This document shows positions 25,968 through 33,487 of a stretch of 64,000 nt of DNA, piece by piece. The notes beneath the pieces were generated by a model. That model made no database searches and had not been told where the DNA came from. It saw nothing but the letters and a program-made list of their open reading frames with translations. The translations under genes were made by a program, and so were the position numbers. Origin of the DNA: Microcaldota archaeon (lineage in GTDB: Archaea; Micrarchaeota; Micrarchaeia; Micrarchaeales; Micrarchaeaceae); NCBI GenBank assembly GCA_021791535.1, contig JAJYWI010000021.1, positions 42,507 to 106,506 on the forward strand, read 5' to 3'. Numbering within the stretch: the first letter of the stretch is position 1; each line of letters starts with the position of its first letter.

Positions 25968-27104
25968 ATGCCCAGACTGAAGATGGTTCTAGCGCAGGCG
26001 AACCTAGCGCTCAAAGGCGGCGCAGAATTCACCATACTTAAGATCGCGCAGCATTACAATACACTGATATACACTGCTGAATACGACAGGAACAGGACAT
26101 ATGACGGATTCAAGGAGTTTGATGTGCGGACGATAAGCAAGGGCGGTTTTACTGGCGTGCTCCCATATGGAAGGATGTCGCAAGGCCTTGACTATGGCCT
26201 ATCCTTCTACAACTTCAAGGTCAAAGAGGATTACGACGTCATCAATGCTCACATAGGGCCAAGCCACTGGATAAGGAACAACAACGAGAGGGTGATGTGG
26301 CACTGCCATACGCCTATGAGGGACATATACGACCTTTATGAGTACAGGATGATGATGAGGAGCCCGCTCGCCAGGCCAGTGTACAGGCTAGGCACCAGGA
26401 TAGTGAAGGGCATGGACCAGGGCGTGGTCAAGAGGATAGAGAAGATCGTGACAAACAGCGAGATAACCCTTGCGCGGATCAAGAAGTACTACAATAGGGG
26501 TGCGACGATAGTCGGGACGGGCGTCGATTGGAGGGATTTCAAGAGGGACGGAGACGGTAAATATTTCTTCTACCCATCAAGATTCTCCCCAAACAAGAGG
26601 CAGGATTATGCTATAAGGGCGTTCCAGTTGTTCAAGAAGCGCACCAAAGGATACAGGCTGGTGCTGTGCGGAGTGACATCGAAGGACCAGTTCTATTACA
26701 ACTACTATAAGCGGGTTAAGGAGCAGGCCGCGAAGGTCGGCGATGTAACGGTGCTCGCTGATATATCCGAAAAGGAGAAGGCAAACCTCTATTCAAGGGC
26801 AACCGCCGTGCTGTTTACGTCTGTTATGGAAGACATGGGCCTTGTGCCGCTTGAGGCGATGGCGAGCGGCAAGCCTGTCATATCTGTCAATGAGGGCGGG
26901 CCGACCATAAGCGTGAAGGACGGCCGCACAGGATTCCTGGTGGGCAGCGAAACCGAGATGGCTAGGCGCATGCAGCAGATTGCCGATGACGAGAGCCTAG
27001 CTGAGAGGCTTGGCAAGGCAGGGCTAAACAGCGCAAAAAGGGAATGGTCGTGGGAGTCATTCTTCAAGCGGTACGACGCAGCTATAAGGGGAATGAGGCT
27101 ATGA
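25968..27104 (+). CDS. Glycosyltransferase family 4 (GT-B)
   Basis: A 378-residue GT-B glycosyltransferase. The N-terminal domain opens MVLAQANLALKGGAEFT. The C-terminal nucleotide-sugar domain carries FTSVMEDMGLVPLEAMASGKPVISVNEGGP, equivalent to the E-x7-E motif of group 1 transferases. No membrane helix. It may build glycans on the many sequon-rich surface proteins here. It overlaps the end of the TBP gene by 6 nt in convergent orientation. Confidence 0.9.
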   Translation: MPRLKMVLAQANLALKGGAEFTILKIAQHYNTLIYTAEYDRNRTYDGFKEFDVRTISKGGFTGVLPYGRMSQGLDYGLSFYNFKVKEDYDVINAHIGPSHWIRNNNERVMWHCHTPMRDIYDLYEYRMMMRSPLARPVYRLGTRIVKGMDQGVVKRIEKIVTNSEITLARIKKYYNRGATIVGTGVDWRDFKRDGDGKYFFYPSRFSPNKRQDYAIRAFQLFKKRTKGYRLVLCGVTSKDQFYYNYYKRVKEQAAKVGDVTVLADISEKEKANLYSRATAVLFTSVMEDMGLVPLEAMASGKPVISVNEGGPTISVKDGRTGFLVGSETEMARRMQQIADDESLAERLGKAGLNSAKREWSWESFFKRYDAAIRGMRL

Positions 27105-27407
27105 CTTCTGCGTTATCGCCTTGACCGGAGATGGCCCTATCACGTATCTCGATATTACCTTTGCAGCGTAGTCCAGCGCCTTCTTTATGTTCGCCTCAGT
27201 ACTGGCGCCGGTGCAGATCATCTTGCCGTTCTTGAAGAGTATTATTGACACTCGCGGCTCCGCAATCTTGAATATGGCGCCAGGAAACTGCTCAGGCTCG
27301 TAGTCGACCTCCTTCACCTTCTTAGACAGCAGGTAGAGGTCTATCTCAGCGTGCAGGTCGGCGCTTACAACTATGTTCTCTATCTTTATTACAGGATTAG
27401 TTATCAT
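27099..27407 (-). CDS. Single-repeat TATA-binding protein (half TBP)
   Basis: A TBP-family protein with only one of the usual two repeats. From residue 5 it reads IKIENIVVSADL..EIDL, VDYEPEQFPGAIFKI, EPRVSIILFKNGKMICTGA, and a closing helix, then stops. Both intercalating phenylalanines of a TBP repeat are conserved (EQFPG and LFKNGK). Canonical archaeal TBPs are about 180-200 residues. The frame extends upstream to TTG 27452 (117 residues), but the TATA box at 27461-27470 places transcription start near 27440, favouring ATG 27407. It would have to act as a dimer. Confidence 0.85.
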   Translation of the reverse strand: MITNPVIKIENIVVSADLHAEIDLYLLSKKVKEVDYEPEQFPGAIFKIAEPRVSIILFKNGKMICTGASTEANIKKALDYAAKVISRYVIGPSPVKAITQKS

Positions 27408-27452
27408 CCCGTCCTTAGCTTTCTTTGGTTTTGCTGCCGTTTTAAACACCAA

Positions 27453-27514
27453 CGTACCACTATTTATATGTGCAAAGGTTTAAATACTATTGAGCGTTCT
27501 GGGCTGGTGAAAAC
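27453..27514. promoter_or_regulatory. Divergent promoter, half-TBP and GGR genes
   Basis: A 62-nt intergenic region with two archaeal TATA elements. CATATAAATA on the minus strand (27461-27470) serves the TBP gene. GTTTAAATACT on the plus strand (27478-27488) serves the flavoprotein, whose ATG lies about 30 nt beyond. Inferred from sequence and spacing. Confidence 0.55.
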
Positions 27515-28606
27515 ATGGATGGGGAGGTCGCCATTGTTGGCGGCGGCGTGATAGGCCTTGTGCTAGCCAAGGAGCTGGCGGGGAGCGGAGTCGATGTTAC
27601 GGTTTATGAGGCGCGCAGGAGGGCCGGCGAAGGCGCCAACAAGGCATCGGGAATCGTATCCGTAGGCGGTTTGGCCAGCATAGGCGTGGATTATCACGAT
27701 GCTGTACTCAATTCTCTTGACGGCGCTGCGCTCTACGCAGGCGAGGAGAAGCTGAGCATAAAGGCGAAGGAAACCAAGGCGTATGTGCTCGACAGGGAGG
27801 TATTCGCCAGGCTGTGCGCAGATGAGGCAATCGAAGCAGGCGCAAGAATAGAGTTTGGGAAAAAGTTAGACAAGGATACGGTCAAGGAGCTTTCGCGTGG
27901 CAGGATAGTCGCAGGAGCTGACGGCGTTGTATCCGGCGTGGCTAGCCAATTCGGCTTCCCTGAGATAAACGATTATGTGCTTACATACAAGGCGGAATAC
28001 GCAGGCGCCGACGTGCGCGACCTGCACTCCTGCGAGCTTTTCTTCTCAGATGCGCCAAAGAGGTTCTTCGGCTGGACGGTGCCGCATTCTAAATCGGTCC
28101 TTGAGGTTGGGATAGGCGAGTGGATACGCACCAGGCGCAACAGCGTGTCGGTGTTCAATGCGTTCATAAAGAACAGCATTGTCTCGGCGGAGATACGCGG
28201 CGCAACGAAGGAATCTGGCCTGGCGAGCATAATACCTCTGCAGGCCAGGAAAGCGACAGTCAAGGGCAATGTGCTGCTCGTCGGAGACGCTGCCGGCCAG
28301 GTCAAGGCAACTACCGGAGGCGGGCTTGTTTTCGGCGCACTGTGCGCCAAGACTGCGGCGGAAGCCATAGTAAACCATCTCAGGAACGGCGCGCCGCTCT
28401 CTATGTACGATAGGATGTGGCGCCGGAGATACATGGCTGACCTCCAGATGCACAGGGCTATACATCGCTATTATTCAAGCTTGGGCCCGAGAGGCGCGCG
28501 GCTGCTTTTCAGGCTCGCCAGAACGCTTGGCGTCGAGGGGTTCCTCAGTGAATACGGAGACATGGACAGCCCGCGCAAGGTCGCGAAGAGGATTTTTGTG
28601 AGATGA
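27515..28606 (+). CDS. Geranylgeranyl reductase-family flavoprotein
   Basis: A 363-residue FAD-dependent oxidoreductase. N-terminal Rossmann VAIVGGGVIGLVLAKELA and the second FAD motif GNVLLVGDAAGQVKATTGGG are characteristic of geranylgeranyl reductases. These saturate the isoprenoid chains of archaeal lipids. Size and the final GGG motif agree with digeranylgeranylglycerophospholipid reductase, though other members act on menaquinone or have unknown substrates. Confidence 0.85.
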   Translation: MDGEVAIVGGGVIGLVLAKELAGSGVDVTVYEARRRAGEGANKASGIVSVGGLASIGVDYHDAVLNSLDGAALYAGEEKLSIKAKETKAYVLDREVFARLCADEAIEAGARIEFGKKLDKDTVKELSRGRIVAGADGVVSGVASQFGFPEINDYVLTYKAEYAGADVRDLHSCELFFSDAPKRFFGWTVPHSKSVLEVGIGEWIRTRRNSVSVFNAFIKNSIVSAEIRGATKESGLASIIPLQARKATVKGNVLLVGDAAGQVKATTGGGLVFGALCAKTAAEAIVNHLRNGAPLSMYDRMWRRRYMADLQMHRAIHRYYSSLGPRGARLLFRLARTLGVEGFLSEYGDMDSPRKVAKRIFVR

Positions 28607-31386: not shown

Positions 31387-32451
31387 ATGAGCGACCTCGT
31401 TAACGACCTATTGGGACAACCCAGCGGAAGCAGCACGACACCACAGGAAGACTTTAGTTCCTCGCAGATAAAGATTGTTACAGCCGGATACGGCGGAGCT
31501 GGCTGCAACATAGTCAACCGGCTTATAAAGGCCGGGGTTAAGGGCACGGAATTCGTTGCTGTTAATACAGATGCGCAGCACTTCAAGATAATAGATGATA
31601 GGATCAAGAAGGTGCTGATAGGAAAGTCGCTAACAAGGGGGCTCGGCGCAGGCGGCGACCCTCAGATGGGCAGGAAGGCCGCTGAGATAGACAGGAACCT
31701 CATAGAGGAGTCGCTGTCAGGCTCGCAGCTCGTATTCCTATGCGCCGGAATGGGAGGCGGCACAGGAACAGGAGGCATATCAGTAGCTGCGCAGGTGGCG
31801 AAGGAGCAGGGCGCCATAGTCGTAGCTATGGTAACGTACCCGTTCGACCTCGAAAGGGTGAGGAAGGTAAAGGCGGAGGAGGGCATCCAGGAGCTGAGGA
31901 AGCACTGCGACAGCGTTATAATACTGGACAACAACACCCTGGTTAGGCTTGTGCCGAACCTTCCGATGAACGAGGCGTTCGCGCTAGCCGATTCGGTTCT
32001 GGCTAAGGCAATAGGAGGCCTCGTATGGACGATAACGCAGCCAAGCATGATAAACATAGACTTCGCTGACGTAAGGAGCATAATGGTAGGCGGAGGCGTG
32101 GGCTTCATAGCTGTTGGAACAGGAAGAGGCGCTGACAAGGTGAACTCCGCTGCTGAAGGAGTGCTGAAGAACAAGCTCCTTGACGTAGACTTCGAGGGCG
32201 CAAGCGGCGCGCTTGTTCACATATCCGGAGGTTCATCACTTACGATTGGCGACGCAGTCCATGCCGGTGAGATAATCACCGAGAGGATGGACCAGAAGGC
32301 CAACGTGAAGTGGGGCGCCAGGATAATCCCAGGTTACGAAGACCAGCTCGAGATCGTGGCAATAGTGACAGGTGTCAAGGGAGCGAGCATAGTCGGGAGG
32401 CTGGAGGAGAAGAAGCAGGAATCTTACAGCGACCTTGAGATGATCGGCTAA
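31387..32451 (+). CDS. ftsZ1: Cell division protein FtsZ1
   Basis: A 354-residue tubulin-like GTPase forming the division ring. GTP-binding: GYGGAGCNIVNRL, the tubulin signature CAGMGGGTGTGG near residue 118, and the T7 catalytic loop NIDFADV. The short N-terminal tail resembles archaeal FtsZ1. A 196-nt AT-rich upstream region holds a TATA-like TTTTTAAA near 31350. The paralogue ftsZ2 follows after 25 nt and sepF is 3.5 kb downstream. Confidence 0.96.
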   Translation: MSDLVNDLLGQPSGSSTTPQEDFSSSQIKIVTAGYGGAGCNIVNRLIKAGVKGTEFVAVNTDAQHFKIIDDRIKKVLIGKSLTRGLGAGGDPQMGRKAAEIDRNLIEESLSGSQLVFLCAGMGGGTGTGGISVAAQVAKEQGAIVVAMVTYPFDLERVRKVKAEEGIQELRKHCDSVIILDNNTLVRLVPNLPMNEAFALADSVLAKAIGGLVWTITQPSMINIDFADVRSIMVGGGVGFIAVGTGRGADKVNSAAEGVLKNKLLDVDFEGASGALVHISGGSSLTIGDAVHAGEIITERMDQKANVKWGARIIPGYEDQLEIVAIVTGVKGASIVGRLEEKKQESYSDLEMIG

Positions 32452-32476
32452 CCACATTGGCATTTAGGTGAGTTCA

Positions 32477-33487
32477 ATGTTGGGAAACCATTCCGGGGAG
32501 GAATTCGTAGCTAAGCTTGCGGTAGTTGGAGTAGGAGGGCAGGGCTGCAACCTTGTGAACAGGCTGTACAAGAGCGGCATAAGGAGCGCAGACACCCTTC
32601 TTCTAAATACAGATGCCAAGCATCTCGGCATAGTCAATGCTGACAAGAAGATACTAATAGGCAAGGAGATAACACGCGGACTAGGGGCTGGCGGATTCCC
32701 TGAAGTCGCGGAGAAGTGCGCAGAAGCCTCGAAGAACGAGATAGCAGAGGCCATAGCTGGATACGACATGGTTTTCGTTGCAGCAGGAATGGGCGGAGGG
32801 ACTGGCGGAGGCGCTGCGCCGGTTGTAGCGAAGATAGCCAAGGAGCAGGGAGCGCTGGTTGTAGCATTCGTAACCTATCCATTCTCGCTTGAGAGGAGCA
32901 GGAAGAACAAGGCCGATTGGTCGCTCCAGCAGCTCGGAAAGCACACTGACACAACTGTTGTGATAGAGAATGACAGAGTGCTTAGCTATGCACCCAACCT
33001 GCCGATGGAGAAGGCGTTCGAGCTTGTTGACAGCGTTGCGTGCAACGCTGTAAAGGGCATCGCAGACACGATAATGCTGCCTAGCCTAATAAACCTGGAT
33101 TTCGCAGACGTGAGGACCGTCATGCGCGGCGCTGGGACTGCTGTGATAAACCTTGGCGCAGGAAGCGGGCATGACAAGGTTGACAAGGCGATAAAGTCAA
33201 CGCTCACCCACCCGATGCTGAATGTCGACCTGCTAGGCGGCAAGAGCGCGCTTGTTCATGTAGCTGGCGGCACCTCCCTTACGATACAGGAGGCGACGGC
33301 GATAGGCCAAGGGGTAACAGAGGGCCTTGATGAGCGGGCTAACGTGATCTTCGGCGCAAGGCTGATACCAGAGCTGAACGACCAGATAAGGGTGATGTCG
33401 ATAGTGACAGGAGTCACACCGAAGTTCGGCCTCGGGATAGATAGGAGCGCCACGCCGCTAACCGACATGAGCCTAGAGCTGATCTGA
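32477..33487 (+). CDS. ftsZ2: Cell division protein FtsZ2
   Basis: A 336-residue second FtsZ. It has GVGGQGCNLVNRL, signature AAGMGGGTGGGAAP, and T7 loop NLDFADV, so GTP hydrolysis residues are intact. The AGGTG at 32466-32470 supports the ATG at 32477. Many euryarchaea and DPANN use two FtsZs, FtsZ1 for assembly and FtsZ2 for constriction. Here they are adjacent and probably cotranscribed. Confidence 0.96.
   Translation: MLGNHSGEEFVAKLAVVGVGGQGCNLVNRLYKSGIRSADTLLLNTDAKHLGIVNADKKILIGKEITRGLGAGGFPEVAEKCAEASKNEIAEAIAGYDMVFVAAGMGGGTGGGAAPVVAKIAKEQGALVVAFVTYPFSLERSRKNKADWSLQQLGKHTDTTVVIENDRVLSYAPNLPMEKAFELVDSVACNAVKGIADTIMLPSLINLDFADVRTVMRGAGTAVINLGAGSGHDKVDKAIKSTLTHPMLNVDLLGGKSALVHVAGGTSLTIQEATAIGQGVTEGLDERANVIFGARLIPELNDQIRVMSIVTGVTPKFGLGIDRSATPLTDMSLELI

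Follow-up and report, generated by a model that had tools for sequence, protein, structure and literature searches.

Single-lobe TATA-binding proteins in Micrarchaeota

All transcription in archaea and eukaryotes is generally held to depend on the TATA-binding protein (TBP), whose two-lobe form is assumed to have stayed fixed since an ancient duplication. Promoter polarity in archaea is set mainly by TFB on the BRE, which would leave room for a symmetric TBP. The YEPEQ glutamates of the canonical C lobe contact TFB (PMC7221094). Single-lobe archaeal TBPs, which are free-standing TBP domains like the one described here, were mentioned by Ravarani et al. 2020, who cited an earlier study (PMC7221094); a single TBP domain in archaea is already known. 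The TBP-like domains of RNase HIII and of DNA glycosylases are also present in single copy, but they are parts of enzymes, whereas the protein studied here is the lobe alone. The earlier study to which Ravarani et al. referred is reportedly that of Brindefalk et al. 2013 on ‘monopartite TBP-domain proteins’. Papers on DPANN archaea list TBP as present, without comment, and we found no report of a Micrarchaeota single-lobe TBP in the literature searched.

The window, by which we mean the whole 64,000-nucleotide stretch of DNA analysed, comes from a Micrarchaeota genome that is 741 kb in length and 93% complete. On its reverse strand, an open reading frame of 117 amino acids with a TTG start (27099..27452; gene A) had been described, in a sequence-only reading, as a TBP with a single repeat that then ends and as carrying both intercalating phenylalanines, and we confirmed both statements. 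A profile search matched PF00352 once, at residues 22–102 (88 bits, E 3.8e-25; the cut-off is 22.9 bits). This is the sole Pfam match in the 117 residues and no repeat adjoins the gene; A has neither two tandem repeats per chain nor a fused enzyme domain, and fits the description of a monopartite TBP-domain protein, in that one TBP domain makes up the whole of its recognisable content. The kinking phenylalanines, F56 (QF56PG) and F73 (LF73KNG), are invariant across 57 single-lobe relatives, as are N26 and V28 in the first strand, the motif YEPEQFPGA that contains the first of these phenylalanines, and G76, C80 and G82. The glutamate pair that contacts TFB in the canonical C lobe (YEPEQF) is therefore present in A and unchanged in all 57 proteins, and we counted this invariance of DNA- and TFB-contact positions in favour of the general-factor reading set out below.

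Modelled with AlphaFold2 together with the 57 relatives, A forms a confident lobe (pLDDT of 90 or more over 70 residues). In Foldseek, this model matches the human TBP lobe (1cdw) at 1.2 Å over 83 residues, as well as single archaeal TBP lobes, and its best non-TBP match has an E value of only 0.07. A different fold, which had been named as an outcome that could overturn the assignment, is ruled out by these matches. A is a true TBP cut down to one lobe. It shares with canonical two-lobe TBPs (1mp9, 1ais, 2z8u and 1cdw) the fold of each lobe, the family model, the kinking phenylalanines and the TFB-contact glutamates, but it has one lobe per chain, so that a saddle would need two chains, and the identities of N and C lobes have been lost.

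Searched in all six frames, the genome yielded exactly two TBP matches: A and a single-lobe gene on another contig (B; G000:C7:37919-38164, contig C7, locus L001), which encodes 104 amino acids and is 45% identical to A. B adjoins a gene that appears to resemble that for ribosomal protein L21e. The sequence-only reading had asked for such a genome-wide search for a two-repeat TBP, and had considered two cases, with A as the genome's sole TBP or as a specialised addition to a normal one. There is a second TBP, but it also has a single lobe, and an ordinary two-lobe TBP elsewhere in the genome is ruled out. The six-frame search likewise excludes a second repeat masked by a frameshift or sequencing error near A, and synteny and conservation are intact. 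TBP co-occurs with one ordinary TFB that has two cyclin repeats, and most of 17 genomes checked also have a single two-cyclin TFB. TATA-like hexamers lie upstream of 15 of 26 starts, compared with 8.0 in shuffled sequences (0 of 500 shuffles were as high), a rough figure because the starts were picked by hand.

Two conserved neighbours, identified by Pfam and synteny, flank A on the forward strand: a glycosyltransferase that is convergent with it (25968..27104; the 3′ ends overlap by 6 nt) and, upstream, a divergent FAD-dependent oxidoreductase (27515..28606). The order FAD oxidoreductase, TBP, glycosyltransferase, SRP54 is retained in most of 25 orthologous loci and, in L047 and L048, A is 88–92% conserved compared with 65–67% for the flanking genes, which together rule out both a pseudogene and an assembly artefact. 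Elsewhere in the window, positions 31387-33487 appear to hold two adjoining FtsZ-like genes.

Translation of A probably starts not at the TTG at 27452 but at a conserved ACG (27440-27438), which gives a probable coding region of 27099..27440 on the reverse strand (about 113 amino acids) that is consistent with the PF00352 match, the AlphaFold2 model and retention of the ACG in orthologs; the 12 nt at 27441-27452 would then probably be an untranslated leader. A Shine–Dalgarno-like GGTG lies 6 nt ahead of the ACG (27447..27450, reverse strand) and is kept upstream of ACG or ATG in orthologs, many of which have no ATG, GTG or TTG at the expected start and instead show GGTG, then 5–6 nt, then ACG. 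An automatic count found the ACG start in 20 of 32 distinct upstream regions of A, and two more were recognized by eye (L053 and L054); the non-ACG regions mostly have ATG, with one TTG and one GCG. Besides the window, ACG accompanied by GGTG occurs at L030, L047, L048, L050, L052, L053, L054, L055, L061, L066, L068, L076, L078, L080, L086 and L089, and in several orthologs (for example, L052, L061, L066 and L068) an in-frame stop codon directly precedes the ACG. As the distance from GGTG to the start is either 5 or 6 nt, the GTG within GGTG is not a start; and as ACG makes up only 32% of threonine codons in the window, a conserved threonine would not always read ACG. Open frames linked to a Shine–Dalgarno motif in the window include one with ACG compared with 14 with ATG, so this start looks specific to A. 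It suggests that A is translated at a low level, which would speak somewhat for a minor partner or an alternative TBP.

Upstream of A, we noted a putative TATA-like element, ATATAAAT (27462..27469, reverse strand), that is absent from some orthologs, and, in the divergent intergenic region, a putative BRE/TATA-like element, CAAAGG-TTTAAATA (27473..27486, forward strand), recognized from the sequence and from upstream regions of orthologs. The latter reads TATTTAAACCTTT on the other strand, a form that is retained upstream of many A orthologs. Its TTTAAA box is self-complementary and could serve both divergent genes.

Across the order, we searched 82 genomes that are each at least 85% complete; most of the genomes surveyed are probably metagenome-assembled. 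TBP matches were found in 80, and only two of these (G017 and G106) have adjacent lobes; the rest have single lobes only. The canonical two-lobe TBP of G017 (L003:1207-1761, contig C43) is an extra copy and probably contamination, because its lobes group with Thermoproteota TBP. G106, from family f2, has a near-identical, in-frame tandem of single lobes (L045:1486-1897) that ends at a contig edge and may be a fresh duplication and fusion or an assembly artefact. In family f1, nearly all genomes carry two TBP copies, identified as A and B in those whose copies were sequenced. B is present in family f2, accompanied in roughly half of the genomes with B by a second copy (A-type in the four that were sequenced), and many f2 genomes have one TBP only, of B-type where sequenced. 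Genomes assembled as one contig agree: three have two single lobes, just A and B (G015, G016 and G049), and one has a single B-type copy (G027).

Extending the survey to the phylum (146 genomes), we found single-lobe TBPs in nine further Micrarchaeota families (f8, f9, f10, f11, f13, f14, f15, f17 and f21) and two-lobe TBPs in nine families (f3–f7, f12, f16, f18 and f20); all 26 Thermoproteota genomes sampled as a control have two-lobe TBPs. Family f11 has three single-lobe copies per genome, some of which are nearly identical (L042, L101 and L102 in G068; L033 and L105 in G074). One genome of the two-lobe family f6, G130, contains a single-lobe TBP (L130:577-864) that has an N-lobe-like start and, by eye, a C-lobe-like end, and that may reflect deletion of a lobe or assembly collapse.

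We consider it likely that single-lobe A and B together constitute a general initiation factor that works as dimers with TFB, and that one lobe was lost in an ancestor, with one later re-fusion. Our best inference is that A would have to dimerise to make a saddle. A and B, as separate single-lobe chains, would act alongside the one ordinary TFB and RNA polymerase. Their first strands would join two chains at the edges, in the manner of the canonical N and C lobes, and the resulting ten-stranded saddle would bend TATA DNA by means of two phenylalanine pairs. A fused relative, G043, in which the lobes are 75% identical, is predicted to form a full saddle (pLDDT 95), so the model shows that near-equal Micrarchaeota lobes can do so. 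The glutamates of YEPEQ are the TFB contacts of the canonical C lobe, so each single lobe could bind TFB; and with the TFB-contact motif YEPEQFPG in both lobes, polarity would be set by TFB on the BRE rather than by TBP. B is seemingly the general form: in genomes of the order with only one TBP, the copies that were sequenced are mostly B-type. If a saddle is indispensable, B would have to homodimerise in genomes that have B alone. A may be the heterodimer partner of B, restoring asymmetry, or a minor alternative TBP.

It is quite possible, although we would not count on it, that A instead stands outside the general machinery as a minor regulator, either as an alternative TBP or as a competitor that pairs with B to shift promoter choice. 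Its dispensability in many f2 genomes that have a single, B-type TBP (where sequenced) is consistent with such a role, as are the long stem branch of A (0.61) and the conserved ACG start, which should hold its translation low. However, A retains the residues that contact DNA and TFB, nearly all f1 genomes carry two copies, and A is better conserved than the genes that flank it.

How the single lobe arose is addressed by the trees. An RpoB′ tree alone left the backbone open and the two-lobe families scattered; the addition of SecY, RpoA′ and seven more outgroups resolved it. In the resulting three-marker tree (RpoB′, RpoA′ and SecY; eight Thermoproteota outgroups, with SecY for one of them only), f10, f13, f15 and f17 branch first (98/99) and the two-lobe families form one clade (100/100) that is nested among single-lobe lineages. 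The tree is rooted on one phylum, Thermoproteota, and omits the long-branched f12, which lands in the same two-lobe clade in another tree. Monophyly of the single-lobe families is rejected with eight outgroups (53.7 log-likelihood units, AU p 2.7e-7) and was not rejected with one outgroup (p 0.118). With a two-lobe outgroup, the single lobe reflects the secondary loss of its partner and is no relic; the suggestion in the sequence-only reading that A resembles the ancestor before duplication thus holds for its architecture and fails for its descent.

In a tree of separate lobes, built from a short alignment of 86 columns, all Micrarchaeota lobes group together to the exclusion of the canonical N and C lobes (100/98). 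The difference between N and C scores is 244 bits for canonical TBP lobes (in-sample) compared with a mean of 17.6 for Micrarchaeota two-lobe proteins, in whose lobes the canonical N/C identity is nearly absent. Making Micrarchaeota N lobes orthologous to their canonical counterparts costs 48.8 log-likelihood units, which speaks against this arrangement but does not reject it (p 0.07); a single clade of all lobes from two-lobe proteins is compatible with the data (p 0.34). The linkers of several two-lobe families are alike by eye (PPK-x-[FY]-x-PK-[FY]). The simplest account of these relationships would be one loss of a lobe in the Micrarchaeota ancestor, followed by one duplication and fusion of the single lobe in a sub-clade. 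More tentatively, and short of what we would expect, the two-lobe TBP may have arisen twice, the second time after a dimer stage in Micrarchaeota, with the A/B heterodimer of the window’s family restoring asymmetry without fusion.

We regard as unlikely a different history, in which the two-lobe TBP was ancestral in Micrarchaeota, gene conversion made its two lobes alike, and recombination between the near-identical repeats then removed one of them on several separate occasions. The lobes of five two-lobe relatives (G042, G043, G044, G107 and G063; loci L113, L114, L115, L125 and L120) share more identical codons than codon usage predicts, which points to gene conversion or to a recent duplication; similarity between lobes is therefore no proof of re-fusion in itself. 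The single lobe of G130, within a two-lobe family, is what in-frame recombination would yield; its start is N-like and its tail C-like by eye, although the chimera score for the later segment (−0.4) does not decide the matter. A similar lean, towards N in the first part and towards C in the last, is seen in several other single-lobe proteins, including A (+10.3 and −10.3, respectively). When single lobes were scored as N/C chimeras, however, the signal was only partial and most single-lobe families showed no clear chimera pattern; constraints at the termini could also cause such a bias. On the three-marker tree, repeated deletion would need at least three to five separate losses, compared with one loss and one gain, and the lobes of two-lobe proteins can be held together against single lobes without conflict with the data, as the clade noted above indicates.

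That a single lobe acts as a monomer on one half of the TATA element, the remaining contact coming from TFB, seems to us improbable. A TBP domain does work as a single copy elsewhere, for example in bacterial RNase HIII (PMC7221094), but half a saddle leaves uncovered the edge strand with which, in canonical TBP, the second lobe pairs, and the existence of two-lobe relatives in the phylum points to a benefit of having both. Loss of the second repeat through assembly collapse or binning is barely credible and is excluded for the order as a whole, because dozens of independent genomes agree, one-contig genomes included, and synteny is conserved, although the similarity between lobes in two-lobe relatives makes a short-read collapse conceivable for isolated genomes such as G130.

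Relative to the single-lobe archaeal TBPs already mentioned in the literature (PMC7221094), those of Micrarchaeota differ in that the single lobe is the sole TBP of whole families, occurs as an A/B pair in one, and is accompanied by a clade whose members apparently regained two lobes. We found no report, in the literature searched, of sole-TBP use across families, of the A/B pair, of the nested re-fused clade or of the ACG start. Micrarchaeota would thus offer a natural series: a homodimer where B is alone, a possible heterodimer where A and B occur together, and a symmetric fusion in the two-lobe relatives. A phylum that combines a living single-lobe, possibly dimeric state with an apparently rebuilt two-lobe form opens both the state proposed to have preceded the TBP duplication and the value of TBP asymmetry to direct tests on natural proteins.
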